A stretch of 64,000 nt of DNA from Methanococcoides vulcani (GTDB taxonomy: Archaea > Halobacteriota > Methanosarcinia > Methanosarcinales > Methanosarcinaceae). Location: contig NZ_FOHQ01000001.1 in the NCBI RefSeq assembly GCF_900111645.1, positions 186,001 through 250,000 of the forward strand, read 5' to 3'. Each line of letters begins with the position of its first letter. Positions within the stretch are counted from its first letter, which is position 1. The notes below the pieces were generated by a model. The model searched no databases and was not told the origin of the DNA. It saw only the letters and a list, made by a program, of their open reading frames with translations. Below are positions 11,127 to 47,810 of the stretch, piece by piece. Position numbers and translations under genes: made by a program.

Positions 11127-12617
11127 ATGGTAGAAGGTTTTTACCCAGCTAGATTCCCACTTCAGGGTGTACAGTTAGAGTTGTTCTCCGATGATGATAT
11201 GAGAGCTATCCACTACGCTTCAATGGAAGTATTCCTTAACCCTGGTATCCAGGTATCTGACCCAGAAGCAAGGGCAATCTTCAAGGAAGCTGGTTGTGAA
11301 GTCGACGAGAAGACCCAGATCGTAAAGATCCCGGAGTTCCTTGTGAACAGGGCACTCATTGACGCACCATCAAGGTTCCTGCTTTATGGTCGTGACAAGA
11401 AGAAGACCGTCGACATGGTACACAAAGGTAAGGTCCACTACATACCTTTCGGTACCGGTGTCAAGATGTGCAACTACGTCTCACCAGGCAAGTACGAGAC
11501 AGTCGACTCTGTTGAGCAGGACATTACAGATACCGCAAAGGTCTGTGACTACCTCGATGGATTCAGCTACTTCTCACTTACCGTTTCCGCAAGGGACTGG
11601 GCAGGAAAGGGAGCACAGGATGTCCACGAGACCCTCACACCTCTCGCAGGCACTACCAAACACTTCCACCACATCGACCCTGTCGGTGAGAACGTCGAGT
11701 ACTACAAGGGAATTGTCGACGCATACTATGGTGGCGACACTGAGGAAGCTCGCAAGAGGCCAATCATGTCCATGCTTCTCTGCCCAACCAGCCCACTCGA
11801 GCTCAGTGTGAACGCATGTCAGGTCATAATGAAAGGTGCAAACTTCGGTATGCCAGTGAACGTCCTGAGTATGGCAATGTCCGGTGGATCCTCCCCAGTA
11901 TTCAGAGCAGGTACACTCGTTACACACAACGCAGAGATCCTCGCAGGTATCGTACTTGCACAGCTCGTTCAGCCAGGCGCATCAGTATTCTACGGTAGCT
12001 CAACCACAACCTTCGACCTGAGGAAAGGAACAGCTCCAGTCGGTGCACCAGAACTCGGTCTTATCAGCGCTGCAGTCGGTAAGATGGGTCAGTTCTATGG
12101 CCTCCCAACCTATGTTGCAGGTACCTAGGCAGATGCCAAGGTCCCAGACACACAGTCAGGCCACGAGAAGACAATGACCACCCTGCTCCCAGCATTCGCC
12201 GGATGTAACACCATCTACGGTGGAGGTATGCTCGAGCTCGGTATGACATTCTCCCTTGAGCAGTTCGTGATCGATAACGACATCATCAAGATGACAAGGT
12301 CCGCAATGCGCGGTGTCCCAGTATCAGACGAGACACTCGCTGTACCATCCATCCAGAAGGTCGGAATCGGTAACAACTTCCTTGCACACAAGGAAACCAG
12401 GAACAACCTCAATCTCGTATCTGCTCCAGATCTCTTTGACAGGGACATGTTCGGAGACTGGGAAGCAGCAGGTTCCAAGGATATTGCAACCGTCGCACAC
12501 GAGAAGGTTGTTGACATCATGAAGAACCACGAGGTAAAGGCAATCGACGCTGACCTCTTAGCAGACATGCAGGCTGTAGTGGACAAGGCAGATGTTGACT
12601 TCAGAGCCAACATGTAA
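11127..12617 (+). CDS. mttB: MttB, trimethylamine methyltransferase with pyrrolysine
   Basis: Trimethylamine:corrinoid methyltransferase, 496 residues, read through an in-frame TAG at 12126-12128. That codon is residue 334, the known pyrrolysine position of MttB. The frame continues without a break to TAA at 12615. Pyrrolysine activates the methylamine for transfer to the Co(I) of MttC, encoded 41 bases downstream. The sequence around the amber is TYVAGT[14 protein letters not shown]. Ribosome site AAAGGAGTTG precedes the ATG. Codon use is strongly biased, as in highly expressed genes. An ordinary gene caller would split this gene at the TAG. Confidence 0.96.
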
Positions 12618-15785: not shown

Positions 15786-17189
15786 ATGGCAACAGAATAT
15801 TTCTTAAGAATGGGTGACGGCGCAAAGATCTTCATGAGCAAGGAAGACATCATGGCCGACATCGAAGCAGGTTGTGCTGACGCAGCAGACCTTGGTGACA
15901 TCCCATCCCTTTCAGAAGATGAAATGGAGAAGATGCTCGATATCATCACATCTCCTGGCAGGATCGTTGGTGTGGAGCCAGGAATGGAAGTTCCGGTAAC
16001 ACACGACATCGGTGCGATCAGGATCGACGGTGACCAGGGTAACAGTGGTGTAGGTATTCCTGCAAGCAGACTCGTCGGTTCCATGATCCACGAGCGCGCA
16101 TTCGGTGCAGACACAATGGAACTCGGTCACATCGACTACAGTTACAAGCCTGTCAAACCAGTCATCTCCCAGGAACAGCAGACAATGGAAGTTTGCCAGC
16201 AGAACATGGTCATTCCTATGCTCTACGGTGCAATGCCAAACATGGGTCTGTACTACACACCTGATGGTCCATTCGAGAACCCAGGTGACCTGATGAAAGC
16301 ATTCAAGATCTCTGAAGCTCAGGAATCCATCAAGAGCGCTGGTGACCACGGTATTCGTGACATGGTCTGGATCATGCAGAGACTCCAGCACGTCGGTTGT
16401 GACGGTGTCAACTTCGATACTATCGGTGCAGCCGGTGACGGTGACATGTATGCATCACTTAATTCTATCGAAGCACTGAGGAAAGAATTCCCGAACATGT
16501 ACATCAATGCAGGTATGGCAGGAGAACTCGTTCTCGGTATGCACGGTGAACTTGAGTATGACGGCACAGTACTGGCAGGTCTCTGGCCACACCAGCAGGT
16601 AGGACTTGCTGCAAAGGCAGGGGCAAACATCTTCGGTCCTGTATGTAACACCAACACCAGCAAGACCTCCGCATGGAACCTTGGTCGCTCAGTTACCTTC
16701 ATGAAGTCAGCTGTTGAGGCATCTCCAATACCATGTCACGTAGATATGGGAATGGGTGTCGGCGGTATCCCAATGCTTGAGACCCCACCAATAGATGCAG
16801 TAACCAGGGCAAGCAAGGCAATGGTCGAGATCGCAGGCGTCGATGGTATATAGATCGGTGTCGGTGACCCACTCGGTATGCCAATTGCACACATCATGGC
16901 ATCAGGTATGACCGGAATGAGAGCAGCTGGTGACCTTGTTGCAAGGATGCAGTTCTCCAAGAGCATGAGAATTGGTGACGCAAAGGACTTCGTATCAAAG
17001 AAGCTCGGTGTCTCAAACGCAGACCTTTCCGACGAGTACGTCATGAGGGAGATCAGAGAAGAGCTCGACATTGGTGTAATCACATCAGTTCCTGGATGCG
17101 CAAAAGGTATTGCAGCTAAGATGAACATCGAGAAACTTCTCGGTATCAACATCAACTGCTGTGACAAGTTCAGGGAAACCATCGCATAA
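15786..17189 (+). CDS. mtbB: MtbB, dimethylamine methyltransferase with pyrrolysine
   Basis: Dimethylamine:corrinoid methyltransferase, 467 residues including pyrrolysine at position 356, encoded by TAG at 16851-16853. The length and amber position match the MtbB family exactly. The N-terminal part is [20 protein letters not shown]; around the amber it reads GVDGI[13 protein letters not shown]. The frame downstream is intact to TAA at 17187. It transfers one methyl of dimethylamine to MtbC, encoded just upstream with a 23-base gap, and starts behind AAGGTGTAAAC. A strong terminator follows 10 bases after the stop, so it ends the operon. A gene caller would split it into two pieces. Confidence 0.96.
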
Positions 17190-40547: not shown

Positions 40548-40788
40548 TTTATCTCCCTTGTCTTAATTCTGCCCTCTGTTTAATGTAAGTTAAGATTCAT
40601 AATCATTCTGGAGACTTCAACTGTAGTTGAACTTTTGGGGGAATGATTTATATTTTTAAGTGTTTTAATAGAAAACATTGATAATAAAGAAATAACCAAG
40701 TTTTAGATAGGGTTATATTAATTGATACTGTATTTACTGTAAATACTTGATTATTTGGTTAGTTGCGGGAGAGCAAAAGGTGGAATTG
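40548..40788 (+). promoter_or_regulatory. Promoter region of the amber-containing surface protein gene
   Basis: AT-rich spacer containing the 18-base string CTGTAGTTGAACTTTTGG (40621-40638), repeated exactly at 45122-45139. A TATA-like GATTTATATTTTTAAG follows near 40645-40660. The ribosome site AAGGTGGAATTG lies just before the ATG at 40789. Confidence 0.55.
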
Positions 40789-42660
40789 ATGAATCTAAAT
40801 AAGGTCACATTTACTTTACTTGTATCATTACTGATGACGTTCTTATTCGTTACAGCAGCATCTGCGTGTTCTCTGAACGATGAATACATCATGGAAATTA
40901 ATATTGACGAACAAAATATCAACATTGCTGATCATTCCGATTCTGCCACAGAAGGGAATTGGATAAGCCTTAGTGGAGGTTCTTCCTTTAGCCTTCCTTC
41001 CCCACTTACATTCACATATAATGGTGTAAACTATACAGAAACGACCATTAATGAAAGAAATATCAATGTTTCTCTTAACGTTGATAATTTCACTGACTAT
41101 GTGATAACTTATCCGTATGCTACTCACCAGATGTATACTAATGTAAGTGGCTTAAATAATGTTGAAATTGAGTTTAGTGGTTCTGATTACTTTGCTGAAG
41201 AAAAAGTAGATGTATACTTATTCAATTCCACAATTTCAGATGTCAAGCAAACGATGTTAGACTTATTGGAGGGTGATACATCAAGTCTAAATGGAATGTT
41301 CAATTCTGTAATGCAATTGTCTGAAGGTGTTGCTCTTGACAGTAATGGTGATATGTCCATGGATTATGGTACTCTAGATGCTGGTTCATACTGCGTACTA
41401 ATAATTCTTCCCGATGAAAATGTATTACTTTCCGCGACTGCATTTGAAGTACTTGATTATAATTCGGATGTGGTCGTTTCAAGTGAATCCGAAAATGTTA
41501 CACTGGATGTTCAGTTGGAAAATGCACCTGCTACCACTTACACTTACGGTGCGATCCTTGTGAAAGAAAGTGAATACAAGGCTGACGTTCGGGTAGAGTT
41601 TGATGGTACAAAGGATGGTTTTAACAGCTCTGTAAATGGTCATCTGGTGGTTGATGGGTTTGATCTCATCGGTATGGAATTGAATGATATGCATAAGAGC
41701 AATGTTAGCGATCTGCTGACAGATATCTATGGTTCCGACAATATATCTATCGTATATAGTACAGTGCCATTTAGCAATGCATCATTGTTGCTTGATACAT
41801 CTGATCTTTCATCAGGTGATTACATCCTCTTCACAGGTGCTATGTCAGATCACGATATGGTGGCTTTTGATGAAAAGAAAGGTTCTGTTTCCAATGGTCA
41901 GTTCCAGTTGGCAACTTAGGCTGTTAAGCCACCTGCTAAGAAAAAGAGCAGTGGCGGTGGAGGCGGTGGTTCTGTTTCCAGTGGTGAGAGCTATGAGAAT
42001 ATCATCTTGAAGAATGTTCTTTCAATGTATATGTACAAGGATACGAATGTAGAATGTTCCTTTATCGACGATCAAAATCCGATCAAGTTCGTAAGATTTA
42101 CACCATTATTGAATGCAGGTTCTATGAAATATGTAGTGGAAGTTCTAAAGGAAACTTCTAGTTTGGCAGCCGATGAACCATTTGGTCTTGTTTATAAGAA
42201 TGTCAATATTGCAGTGGGTTCTGGTTGGGCCAATGAAAGAACGGTCAAGGATGCAACTGTGGGGTTTGCTGTAGAAAAAGAATGGCTTGAAAGTAACAAT
42301 GTAGATGTTGCTGATGTAAGGTTATTACACTATACAACAGAATGGGTGGAACTTGAAACAAATCAGGTAAGTGAAGATGACGATTTTGTTTACTTCATTG
42401 CAAAAACTTCCAGTTTCTCACCTTTCGCAATTGTGGGTGTTTCTGATGAGGTTGAAACGTTTGAAGATGAGGTTGAAGTTATTTCTGAAACCCTCTCTGA
42501 TGATCGACCTGTGGAAATAATTCATGAGGGTGCACCGGAATTGGATGATCAGGCTTTATCTACAGATGGTAAAATAACAGGCAAAGTGATTCTTGCTTTG
42601 ATCTTTTTGATCTTATCGATAGGTTTGATCGGAATTGCTGAACTGAGGAGGAATAAATAA
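40789..42660 (+). CDS. Secreted, anchored PGF-pre-PGF surface protein with in-frame amber codon
   Basis: A 623-codon frame interrupted only by TAG at 41917-41919 (codon 377). The N-terminal part has a signal peptide (LVSLLMTFLFVTAASA) and two methanogen surface domains resembling TIGR04279. After the TAG come a Lys/Gly/Ser linker (KPPAKKKSSGGGGGG), a PGF-pre-PGF-like domain ending SSFSPFAIVGVSDE, an acidic stretch and a C-terminal anchor helix (VILALIFLILSIGLIGIAEL) with a basic tail. The downstream 247 codons are open and lack their own signal peptide or ribosome site. In this pyrrolysine-using organism the TAG may be read as Pyl; otherwise a truncated, unanchored protein is made. Start ATG follows AAGGTGGA. 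Confidence 0.82.
41929..41954 (+). other. PYLIS-like hairpin just after the amber codon
   Basis: CCACCTGCT (41929-41937) pairs with AGCAGTGG (41947-41954), an 8-bp stem with one bulged C and a purine-rich loop, starting nine bases after the TAG. Stem-loops in this position have been described downstream of Pyl codons, though they are not strictly required. By eye only. Confidence 0.45.
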
Positions 42661-43161: not shown

Positions 43162-43992
43162 TTATGCTATATGCGGGAGTACTCCAAAGAGTATGATGTT
43201 CACAAATCCGTGTGTCAGCGTCACAAGTAACAGATCTCTTCTTATTATATACATGGCTCCCATTATAAAACCTGCAAAACCAGTAAATGCCATCTCATAT
43301 GGTGTACCATATCCGGAGTGCATAACACCGAAAAGAATACTTGCAAGGATCAATCCCTGATACTTACCTAACATTTCCTCCAGTTTTGTTTGCAGTATTG
43401 ACCTGAATACAAGTTCTTCAAACAGGCCGACGAAAAAGATCATAACGATAGATAACTTAAGCAAATTAAATACTGAAAGATCCGGTATAAGGTAACTGGG
43501 TTTGATGATGAGGAATTCCCCTACTGCGATCACAGTACTTGCTATCAGGGCAAGTGGCAGTTCATAGTATCTTATATTCCTGGTAATTCCAAGATCTGAA
43601 AGTGAGAGGTTCTGATCCTTTACAAGAACATATATTGGAATTGCCAGCGGTGCATAGATGAATGCATAGGAATAAAGTGTCATCTCAAAGAACACAGGCA
43701 TTGAAAGATTTAGTATCCTTAGTAAGGAAAGGAGGATGAATGCACGTAATATATGTTGCTTGTTCCTGTCATCAAATATCATTGTAGACAAGGTCAAAAT
43801 AATTAGCAGGATCAAATGTGTCCATATCGCGAACTTTGTCCTGCCAGCAAATAATGACATCTCTGCAATTATTATCATTAATGAAGGAATGGCTATAGCA
43901 AGAAGATCTATCTGCGACTGGTTCATTGTCCTTATCTTGTAAAAGAGATCGTTTTTCACGATAATATCTTCAGCTTCAGTTCCTGTCTCCAT
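43162..43992 (-). CDS. CPBP-family intramembrane protease A
   Basis: A 276-residue membrane protein with about seven helices. The three CPBP/CAAX-protease motifs are visible: EELVFRSIL (EExxxR), FGVMHSGYG (FxxxH) and LTHGFVNII (HxxxN). These provide the metal-binding glutamate pair and histidines. Relatives cleave prenylated proteins in eukaryotes and process or protect against peptides in bacteria. It lies one base after the DUF1616 gene in the same leftward unit, beside genes for surface proteins, which suggests a role in their maturation; that is inference. It ends GVLPHIA, unlike the extended copy B. Confidence 0.88.
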   Translation of the reverse strand: METGTEAEDIIVKNDLFYKIRTMNQSQIDLLAIAIPSLMIIIAEMSLFAGRTKFAIWTHLILLIILTLSTMIFDDRNKQHILRAFILLSLLRILNLSMPVFFEMTLYSYAFIYAPLAIPIYVLVKDQNLSLSDLGITRNIRYYELPLALIASTVIAVGEFLIIKPSYLIPDLSVFNLLKLSIVMIFFVGLFEELVFRSILQTKLEEMLGKYQGLILASILFGVMHSGYGTPYEMAFTGFAGFIMGAMYIIRRDLLLVTLTHGFVNIILFGVLPHIA

Positions 43993-43993
43993 T

Positions 43994-44878
43994 TCACATC
44001 TCCTTCATATCTACCCATAAATGGAGGTCACGATATGGTTCTGTCATGTTTTTGTCTTTGTAGAGCAGGAATTGAAGTTTCATATCTTCCCCTGCAGATG
44101 CAGGTGTGAATGTTACTTCTTTCTCCCACGTTTGGTTGTGTTGAAGGATTATTTGATGTAGATCCTGTTCCATCATCTGTGAACTATTCTCAAGCATTAG
44201 CTCTATGGAATATTCAGTATCTGTATATTCATGGTTCACAATCCCAACGATAACGGTACCGTTTTGACCAAACTGGAGATCAGTGGGATAGTTATCAGCC
44301 ATTCCATCAAGTCCGAGTATGTAGAATTCTGTGAATTTTTCTCCTTCTTTTGGTGTAACGACAACGTATGCAAGAGTTACTATTGAAGCTAATATTGATA
44401 TTACGAGAAGAATTGTCAGTATCCTGTCGATCTTGTTCTCCGGTTTCTTTGTGATCTCTTCCTTTGCTGAAACATATGCTGAATAAAAGGGAACAGTGAA
44501 CTTATCATCTTCCGGAAGATTATTCCTTCTGAACACTGCTACTGCACACATTATGACGGTGAAAGCTGAAAGTGATATCAGTATGGGAAAAAGCCTTATT
44601 CCCCATGGTGTATAGTTGAGGGCAAGGCCAATAAGGGGAACTACTGCAATACTAAGACCAAAACTAAGTGCTAATCGCTCTATACCGTCCAGGTCATCCT
44701 TGCCCGGGAAAAGTGCTGCTATCAATGCATAACCTGGCAAGAACAAGACCATTGGAAGCCCAAGGGCTGTTCGTATGGGCGTATTACTCAAGGTTGGGAT
44801 CGTTATGAATATGCAGGTAAGTAGAACAAGTGCTATGACAACCTGAATATCGGATGGAATCTTATTCCTATGGAACAT
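43994..44878 (-). CDS. DUF1616 membrane protein A
   Basis: A 294-residue protein of the DUF1616 family. Four membrane helices fill the first 120 residues, with the family pattern LGLPMVLFLPGYALIAALFPGK and the following LDGIERLALSFGLS. A fifth helix lies near residue 160. The C-terminal 120 residues should face outside and read as a beta-sandwich (TVIVGIVNHEYTDTEYSIEL, HNQTWEKEVTFTP). The role is unknown. DUF1616 genes occur near surface-protein and exopolysaccharide genes in archaea. It is followed at once by the CPBP gene, so the two are co-translated. Confidence 0.85.
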   Translation of the reverse strand: MFHRNKIPSDIQVVIALVLLTCIFITIPTLSNTPIRTALGLPMVLFLPGYALIAALFPGKDDLDGIERLALSFGLSIAVVPLIGLALNYTPWGIRLFPILISLSAFTVIMCAVAVFRRNNLPEDDKFTVPFYSAYVSAKEEITKKPENKIDRILTILLVISILASIVTLAYVVVTPKEGEKFTEFYILGLDGMADNYPTDLQFGQNGTVIVGIVNHEYTDTEYSIELMLENSSQMMEQDLHQIILQHNQTWEKEVTFTPASAGEDMKLQFLLYKDKNMTEPYRDLHLWVDMKEM

Positions 44879-45121: not shown

Positions 45122-45338
45122 CTGTAGTTGAACTTTTGGTGATAAGTTCTATTTCCGATTGTCAGTTTTAGTTGATCACTGATGTTATTAATCCGCCTTC
45201 CTTTCACAAGGTTAGTGTTTCCAATGAAGTTGAAATCCAGTTGAAAATAGGGTTGAAGTTATTCTAGAGATCACCCTTGAAGATGTACCTGTAGGAACTA
45301 TTTCTCAAGATGCTTATATGCAAGGAAAAAAACGCTAA
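45122..45338 (+). pseudogene. Remnant of a paralogue of the amber-containing surface gene
   Basis: The left end repeats 18 bases of the upstream region of the 40789 gene. From about 45196 the sequence matches, with decay and a frameshift, the C-terminal region: VSNEVE corresponds to VSDEVE, and a second frame gives EVILEITLEDVPVG against EVISETLSDDRPVE, ending at TAA 45336. About 1.7 kb of the middle is missing. Too degraded to encode a protein. Confidence 0.7.
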
Positions 45339-45389
45339 AAAAGATGGAAGTGGGCAAAGGAAAAACTTTTCCTGCTTTCGATATTTATT

Positions 45390-45701: not shown

Positions 45702-46679
45702 TCATCTATTTTTCCTTAGTTCAATAAATCTGATTGCGACGATGGATAAGACTAAAAATATGAAACCAACGATCAACTTTCCATTTTCCATAGCTAATTC
45801 CATAGCTAATTCCATAGCTAATTCCATAGCTAATTCCATAGCTAATTCGGGAGTTGCTATATGGGGGAGTACTCCAAAGAGTATGATGTTTACAAATCCA
45901 TGTGTTAACGTCACAAGTAACAGATTTCTTCTTATTAAGTACATGGCTCCAAGTATAATACCTGCAGAACCAGTAAATGTATCATATGGTGTACCATATC
46001 CAGAGTGCATAACAGCGAAAAGGATACTTGCTAGGAGAAGTCCCTGGTACTTGCCTATAATCTCTTCAAGTTTCGTTTGCAGTATTGATCTGAATACAAG
46101 TTCTTCAAACAGGGCGACGAAAAAGATCATAATGATGGATAACTTAAGTAAATTCAATATTGATATGTCAGGTATAAGGTAGCTGGGTTCGATGACAAGG
46201 AATTCCCCTGCCGCGATCACAATACTCGCTATCAGGGCAAGAGGAAGGTCATAGTACTTTATATTCCTGGCAATGCCAATATCTGAAAGTGAGAGGTTTT
46301 GATCCTTTACAAGAACATATATTGGAATTGCCAGCGGGGCATAGATGAATGCATAGGAATAAAGTGTCATCTCAAAGAACACTGGCATTGACAGATTAAG
46401 GATCTTTAGCAAGGAAAGGAGAATGAATGCATGTAATATATGCTGTTTGTTCTTGTCATTAAATATCATTGTAGACAAGGTTAAAATTATTAGCAGGATC
46501 AAATGTGTCCCTATCGCGAACTTTGTCCTGCCGGCAAATAATGACATCTCTGCAATTATTATCATTAATGAAGGGATGGCTATAGCTAGAAGGTCTATTT
46601 TGAATTGGTCCATTCTCCTTATCTTGTTGAAGGGATTATTTTCCGTGACAACATCTTCAGCTTCAGTTTCGCTCTCCAT
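45702..46679 (-). CDS. CPBP-family protease B with acquired C-terminal anchor
   Basis: A 325-residue paralogue of protease A with the same motifs (EELVFRSIL, FAVMHSGYG, LTHGFVNII). It is about 50 residues longer. After the point where copy A stops (PHIA) it reads on through five tandem MELA units, encoded by a 12-bp repeat, into a hydrophobic helix with a basic tail (GKLIVGFIFLVLSIVAIRFI). That tail resembles the C-terminal anchor of the 40789 surface protein, including the GK start and the E-L-R-x-N-K/R end. This indicates a gene fusion by rearrangement. Its ATG directly follows the DUF1616 B stop. Confidence 0.85.
   Translation of the reverse strand: MESETEAEDVVTENNPFNKIRRMDQFKIDLLAIAIPSLMIIIAEMSLFAGRTKFAIGTHLILLIILTLSTMIFNDKNKQHILHAFILLSLLKILNLSMPVFFEMTLYSYAFIYAPLAIPIYVLVKDQNLSLSDIGIARNIKYYDLPLALIASIVIAAGEFLVIEPSYLIPDISILNLLKLSIIMIFFVALFEELVFRSILQTKLEEIIGKYQGLLLASILFAVMHSGYGTPYDTFTGSAGIILGAMYLIRRNLLLVTLTHGFVNIILFGVLPHIATPELAMELAMELAMELAMELAMENGKLIVGFIFLVLSIVAIRFIELRKNR
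45786..45845. repeat. Five tandem 12-bp repeats in CPBP gene B
   Basis: TTCCATAGCTAA repeated five times without a mismatch, encoding (MELA)n on the minus strand. It sits exactly at the junction between the CPBP body and the acquired anchor. In-frame copy-number change would alter linker length without breaking the gene. Confidence 0.95.
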
Positions 46680-47810
46680 TTACATCTCCTCCACATCGAT
46701 CCATAAATGAAGGTCTCGATAATGTTCTGTCATGTTTTTGTCTTTGTAGAGCAAGAATTGCAGTTTCATGTCTTCCCCTGCAGCTGCAGGTGTGAACGTT
46801 ACTTCTTTCTCCCACGTTTGGTTGTGTTGAAGTATTATTTGATGTCGATCCTGTTCCATCATCTGTGAATCATTCTCAAGCATTAGCTTTATGGAATATT
46901 CAGTATCTGCATATTCATGGTTCACAATCCCAACGATGACGGTACCGTTTTGACCAAACTGGAGATATGTGGGATAGTTATCAGCCATCCCCTCAGGTCC
47001 GAGGATGTAGAATTCAGTGAATTTTTCACCTTCTTTTGGTGTAACGACAACATATGCAAGAGTTACTATTGAAGCTAATATTGATAGCACCAGAAGAATG
47101 GTAAGGATTCTATCAAGTTTATTCTCCGGTTTCTTTGAGATCTCTTCTTTTAATGAAATATATGCTGAATAAAAGGGAACAGTGAACTTATCATTTTCCG
47201 GAAGATTATTCCTTCTGAACACTGCTACTGCACACATTATGACGGTGAAAGCTGAAAGTGATATCAGTATGGGAAAAAGCCTTATTCCCCATGGTGTATA
47301 GTTAAGGGCAAGGCCAATAAGGGGAACTACTGCAATACTAAGACCAAAACTAAGTGCTAATCGCTCTATCCCGTCCAGGTCATCCTTGCCCGGGAAAAGT
47401 GCTGCTATCAATGCATAACCTGGTAAGAACAAGACCATTGGAAGCCCAAGGGCTGTTCGTATGGGTGTATTACTCAAGGTTGGGATCGTTATGAATATGC
47501 AGGTAAGTAGAACAAGTGCTATGACAACCTGAATATCGGAGGGAATCTTATTCCTATGGGACATTGTTATTTCTCAACAGTTTATGTTTTGCTACATTCC
47601 TAAATATATGCGATGCTTTATAAATATGTTAGGAAGGCTTTATACAGTATTCAACTTTCTAGACTACATTTTATCCTTTGGTAAATTCTTCATAACAACC
47701 ATTTTAAATATTTTTGAGAATCAGTCCGGAAATCCTTATGTAGTTTGCAACTGACTCTAAAGTAGCTGACAGATTAGTGTATATTTTTGTGAAAAAATCT
47801 GTGCTCTAAT
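45880..47810. repeat. Duplicated block, copy 2 (CPBP + DUF1616 + upstream region)
   Basis: Direct repeat of the block at 43160-45110. DUF1616 genes A and B differ at only a few positions, while the CPBP copies differ more and copy B carries the 3' fusion. Confidence 0.85.
46680..47564 (-). CDS. DUF1616 membrane protein B
   Basis: A 294-residue near-identical copy of the gene at 43994. The membrane half is unchanged over long stretches (LGLPMVLFLPGYALIAALFP). Substitutions gather in the cytoplasmic loop around residues 125-140 (SAYISLKEEISKK against SAYVSAKEEITKK) and in the outer domain. Its promoter region is likewise duplicated. Divergent from the PGF-pre-PGF gene at 47855, so expression of the two may be coordinated. 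Function unknown. Confidence 0.85.
   Translation of the reverse strand: MSHRNKIPSDIQVVIALVLLTCIFITIPTLSNTPIRTALGLPMVLFLPGYALIAALFPGKDDLDGIERLALSFGLSIAVVPLIGLALNYTPWGIRLFPILISLSAFTVIMCAVAVFRRNNLPENDKFTVPFYSAYISLKEEISKKPENKLDRILTILLVLSILASIVTLAYVVVTPKEGEKFTEFYILGPEGMADNYPTYLQFGQNGTVIVGIVNHEYADTEYSIKLMLENDSQMMEQDRHQIILQHNQTWEKEVTFTPAAAGEDMKLQFLLYKDKNMTEHYRDLHLWIDVEEM

Follow-up and report, generated by a model that had tools for sequence, protein, structure and literature searches.

A cell-surface protein gene of Methanococcoides vulcani is interrupted by an in-frame TAG, and we asked whether this codon breaks the gene, switches its product between two forms, or is simply read as pyrrolysine (Pyl). 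The gene lies in a window of 64,000 nucleotides, by which we mean the whole stretch of DNA that was analyzed. Its frame runs for 376 codons to the TAG at 41917-41919 (codon 377), continues for 246 codons to the last sense codon (42655-42657), and ends with TAA (42658-42660); translation of the 623 codons revealed no second stop. This agrees with the initial annotation, in which a single frame of 623 codons was broken only at 41917, and the run of codons downstream was indeed intact, although it comprises 246 sense codons and not the 247 given there. A run of 246 open codons would arise by chance, at the base composition found after the TAG, with a probability of approximately 6e-9. Furthermore, both the codon-usage score and the codon-position base composition after the TAG resembled those of the part before it.

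The arrangement of parts was also as first described, with a signal peptide and a surface domain before the TAG, and a linker, a PGF-pre-PGF domain, and a membrane anchor after it (Table 1). Both NCBIfam matches passed their model cut-offs by a wide margin (346.7 bits versus 35 for TIGR04279, and 156.6 bits versus 28 for TIGR04213), and hydrophobicity at the C-terminus peaked at residue 600 (score 2.7 in the best 19-residue Kyte-Doolittle window). Pfam gave sub-threshold matches only, and the NCBIfam model for PGF-CTERM (TIGR04126) did not match the protein, although it matches the homologue L007. An AlphaFold2 model built from a four-sequence alignment had a mean pLDDT of 39.6, too poor for use. 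The TAG does fall at a domain boundary, as had been claimed, namely in the linker between the two modeled domains. Since copies of a 21-nt repeat flank this linker (41881-41901 and 41968-41988; 90% alike, 87 nt apart, and in frame), it may stem from a small in-frame duplication.

Table 1. Positions in the window of the surface gene, its parts, a neighboring remnant, and the two control genes
Feature	Position	Strand	Basis
Predicted single surface gene, 623 residues, Pyl (O) at 377	40789..42660	+	translation, NCBIfam, colinear homologue L007
Signal-peptide-like N-terminus MNLNKVTFTLLVSLLMTFLFVTAASA, to ...TAASA	40789..40866	+	sequence, hydrophobic window
TIGR04279 extracellular domain, residues 58-364	40960..41880	+	NCBIfam E 1.3e-103
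Lys/Gly-rich linker containing TAG	41881..41985	+	repeat search, sequence
In-frame TAG, codon 377, proposed Pyl sense codon	41917..41919	+	sequence; genome-wide TAG usage
PGF-pre-PGF domain (TIGR04213), residues 400-550, complete profile	41986..42438	+	NCBIfam E 4.4e-46
Hydrophobic C-terminal helix and basic tail, membrane anchor	42574..42657	+	hydropathy
Decayed remnant of paralogous surface gene	45122..45340	+	upstream sequence joined to frame-shifted C-terminal coding pieces
mttB, in-frame TAG 12126-12128, control for Pyl decoding	11127..12617	+	PYLIS_3; TIGR02369 spans TAG
mtbB, in-frame TAG 16851-16853, second control	15786..17189	+	PYLIS_2; TIGR02368 spans TAG

The premise that this organism must decode TAG as Pyl was borne out. 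The genome holds one complete pylTSBCD cassette, encoding tRNA-Pyl (anticodon CTA), PylS, PylB, PylC, and PylD (the latter two assigned by protein-family models), and the two control genes of the window, mttB and mtbB, carry in-frame TAGs together with matches to PYLIS models. One ordinary release factor, aRF1, was found above the family cut-off. In addition, pylB (L067:4794-5906, minus strand) itself has TAG as its stop and overlaps with pylC; an extension past this TAG would comprise 42 residues that are not coding-like, and the same pylB end is found in M. mazei, M. acetivorans, and M. burtonii (PMC2933860).

Gene calling by codon usage in 850 kb, equal to 37% of the genome, yielded 681 genes, which were terminated by TGA (375), TAA (297), or TAG (9). 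Seven of the nine TAGs were internal, with 111 to 904 coding-like codons beyond them. They lie in mttB, mtbB, the genes for SepCysS, class II ribonucleotide reductase (NrdJ), and CobN, part of a CcmF-like heme lyase gene, and the surface gene, and in the first six a single family model crosses the TAG. As controls, we took the 36 TAA- or TGA-ended genes that have an in-frame coding continuation and lie whole within one stretch. In every case the best family model stayed on one side of the stop, and where models were found on both sides, they belonged to different neighboring genes or, in one case, to tandem paralogues. The spanning model replaced coding continuation alone as the test, because the in-frame next genes of operons also pass the latter, which fails to separate TAG from TAA and TGA. 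TAG appears to be a true end in two of the 681 genes, pylB and a CcmF-like gene that has a TGA six codons further on. In G020 (600 kb), a relative from a different genus, TAG ended 7 of 387 genes, six of them without coding continuation. In M. vulcani, TAG was nearly absent as a terminator and present inside genes, the pattern that genome-wide TAG recoding would give. Being nearly unused as a stop and mostly found within genes, TAG would here serve chiefly to encode pyrrolysine.

Three of the other TAG-containing genes bear on the origin of the codon and on selection beyond it. The SepCysS gene (L096, G000:C5:136088-137239, minus strand) has its TAG at codon 102, where TAG is found in 3 of 11 Methanococcoides genomes (L096, L097, and L099) and CAG in the other eight; the residue just before it is Gly in the three TAG carriers and Ala in the CAG genomes. 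Over the 282 codons after the TAG, omega between TAG carriers was 0.10, 0.11, and 0.02 (the pair L096/L106 was left out, as its lengths differ and the value is meaningless), and this part of the protein is thus strongly constrained. That a TAG is held in common while the codons after it stay constrained makes a clean comparative case for a real TAG sense codon in part of the genus, and indicates that TAG is translated in this lineage. The NrdJ gene (L111, G000:C5:371725-373818, minus strand), the only NrdJ match in the genome, has a TAG at codon 258 where relatives, at 91 to 94% identity, have CAG. For CobN (L116, G000:C5:591276-595031, minus strand; TAG at codon 348), no close orthologue was found to show an ancestral codon; a CobN read-through case has been predicted in M. 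acetivorans (PMC1242214). Where the origin is visible, namely in SepCysS and NrdJ, TAG arose by a CAG-to-TAG transition. These are the two other TAG sites for which a close orthologue could be aligned, and since relatives have CAG at both, the same origin fits best for the surface gene, whose codon 377 was probably CAG. The initial annotation had offered a single CAG-to-TAG mutation as the simpler alternative to its own proposal. This origin is well in keeping with our comparison. In this code, such a mutation would exchange Gln for Pyl and would not be a nonsense change.

Comparison of homologues, which had been proposed as a check on conservation of the codon, gave no internal stop or TAG in any homologue of 60 related genomes, and the TAG at 41917 is, as far as seen among them, private to this genome. 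No orthologue above about 57% identity was found. The nearest relatives share about 48 to 57% identity over the first domain and keep the downstream neighbors where the contig allows a check, and a scan of viral contigs found no relatives. The segment 40638-45121 is extra relative to the sister genomes, and its edges carry an 18-base exact repeat (40621-40638 and 45122-45139). At its downstream edge lies the decayed remnant of a paralogue, and at this site the sister genomes hold only remnant-type sequence. By these comparisons, surface genes of this kind are gained and lost at the locus. Because of this turnover and of the decayed paralogue 2.5 kb downstream, the view that the TAG is a recent nonsense mutation, the first lesion of a decaying pseudogene, stays alive; such families turn over fast, the TAG is unique to this genome, and the sister genomes have no intact copy at the site. 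Nevertheless, the 623 codons contain no second lesion, and where TAG is decoded as Pyl, it does not amount to a null allele. General decay was also rejected as the source of TAG-interrupted genes, because it would give TAA and TGA interruptions as well. TAG was the only gene-interrupting stop seen in the 850 kb, though codons one base change away from each stop were comparably available (25904 for TAG, 25635 for TAA, and 15171 for TGA). We therefore regard a pseudogene as unlikely.

The architecture varies among the nearest relatives, being one domain with an anchor, a single giant protein, or two genes. One of them, G009, encodes TIGR04279 and PGF-pre-PGF separately, in two genes of a single contig, as would be the case here if the TAG ended a secreted TIGR04279 protein and a distinct PGF-pre-PGF anchor protein followed. 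However, the second gene of G009 has its own signal-like N-terminus, unlike the part after the TAG here, which, as first noted, is without a signal peptide and shows nothing like a Shine-Dalgarno site near TTG 42007 or ATG 42029. Moreover, L007, from another genus of the same family, is a colinear fusion with TIGR04279, linker, PGF-pre-PGF, and PGF-CTERM in one frame, and two separate genes are in our view scarcely credible. We give just as little credence to a sequencing or assembly error at 41917: a single base does separate TAG from CAG, but six other internal TAGs are found in the genome, one of them common to two independently assembled genomes.

The initial annotation had further proposed that the TAG gates the anchor, with termination yielding a soluble protein and Pyl insertion an anchored one, so that output follows Pyl or methylamine status. 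With the secreted domain on one side of it and the anchor part on the other, the TAG is placed just as such a switch would need, and suppression in Methanosarcina can be partial, with the amber codon of a uidA reporter in M. acetivorans being read at only 20 to 30% (PMC2933860). In addition, the RNA just 3' of the TAG was more stable than its shuffles (z -2.4), whereas mttB and mtbB, the Pyl genes already known in this window, showed no excess stability in the same test (z -0.7 and +0.7). This fold is suggestive, and we give it little weight because it comes from a single sequence in a Gly-codon-rich stretch. No PYLIS element was found at 41917 with Rfam, and Pyl insertion needs no cis element (reviewed in PMC8211752). 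Against the switch, none of the 60 relatives has a homologue with TAG, the colinear homologues are plainly anchored, and TAG also lies within genes whose truncation would make no sense as regulation. That at least six other genes of unrelated function have internal TAGs points to a code in general use and not to a gate peculiar to this gene, and the scarcity of true TAG terminators (2 of 681) predicts efficient read-through. The proposed switch is thus without positive support, and we consider it very improbable.

The explanation that we favor, and hold to be probable, is that constitutive decoding of TAG as Pyl gives one full-length, membrane-anchored protein that is neither broken nor switched. 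In this mechanism, tRNA-Pyl(CUA), charged by PylS, would read codon 377 without a dedicated insertion signal, and the product would be a secreted, membrane-anchored surface protein of 623 residues with Pyl at 377 in an exposed flexible linker. The TAG would derive from a single transition of a CAG (Gln) codon, a near-neutral Gln-to-Pyl change, and Pyl would persist since it is harmless in a Lys/Gly-rich linker, with no regulatory role needed. A site between two domains is where tolerance would place it, because a flexible linker of this kind accepts a new residue most easily. Four observations were counted against this reading, namely the presence of aRF1, the decayed paralogue remnant at 45122-45340, the identity of only about 57% to the closest orthologue, and the partial reading of the uidA amber codon in M. 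acetivorans. The TAG at 41917 would be read efficiently, the near-absence of TAG stops arguing for better read-through, as it has for 'Ca. M. alvus' (PMC4153887). By analogy with the poorly read uidA codon, termination may also give some truncated, secreted protein beside the full-length one. That incomplete read-through of UAG gives each cell both released and anchored forms, in a ratio set by the supply of Pyl-tRNA, seems to us very improbable; if true, it would amount to a nutrient-linked choice between secretion and display, encoded by one codon.

As had been suggested, the surface gene is a real and well-supported candidate for a Pyl protein, since the genome reads TAG as sense in at least six further genes and rarely uses it as a stop. 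It shares with mtmB, mtbB, and mttB, two of which lie within this window, a single in-frame TAG and the same decoding machinery. In those genes, however, Pyl is conserved and catalytic and PYLIS models match, whereas the TAG of the surface gene is not conserved and has no PYLIS. 'Pyl code' archaea, in which all TAG codons are read as pyrrolysine, were reportedly described by Kivenson et al. in Science in 2025, with Methanococcoides burtonii said to be among the organisms tested by proteomics. M. vulcani would resemble them in reading TAG as Pyl across the genome, though this may not extend to every TAG, as its pylB ends at TAG, like that of M. burtonii (PMC2933860).

Pyrrolysine in otherwise ordinary genes is already a known phenomenon. 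In 'Candidatus Methanomethylophilus alvus', 16 extra Pyl proteins are predicted, half of the predicted Pyl proteins have TAG-free homologues, and TAG makes up 1.6% of stops, compared to 1.3% here (PMC4153887). That organism likewise has many TAG-containing genes, but it belongs to another order (Methanomassiliicoccales) and the genes are others. Thg1 (tRNAHis guanylyltransferase) of M. acetivorans is presented as having gained Pyl through neutral evolution (PMC8211752 and PMC3639795; Heinemann et al. 2009, as cited in PMC8211752 and PMC2933860). From what these citing papers relate, it resembles the surface gene in having a lineage-specific in-frame TAG in an ordinary gene whose homologues have a sense codon, and in that Pyl is apparently not needed for function. 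Thg1 was studied experimentally, whereas the protein described here is secreted and its read-through is predicted only. An exported, membrane-anchored surface protein would thereby join the few predicted Pyl proteins on record. In this genome, TAG is found within genes that serve translation support, the making of DNA precursors and of cofactors, and the cell surface, and standard annotation would label all such genes as pseudogenes or split genes.

Two further repeats were observed downstream of the surface gene. The regions 43165-44292 and 45855-46978 are a tandem duplication of a module of two minus-strand membrane-protein genes, with copies that are 86 to 92% alike over aligned blocks and spaced by about 2.69 kb. 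At 45786-45860, a 12-nt tandem repeat, TTCCATAGCTAA, is present in about five copies within a minus-strand reading frame.
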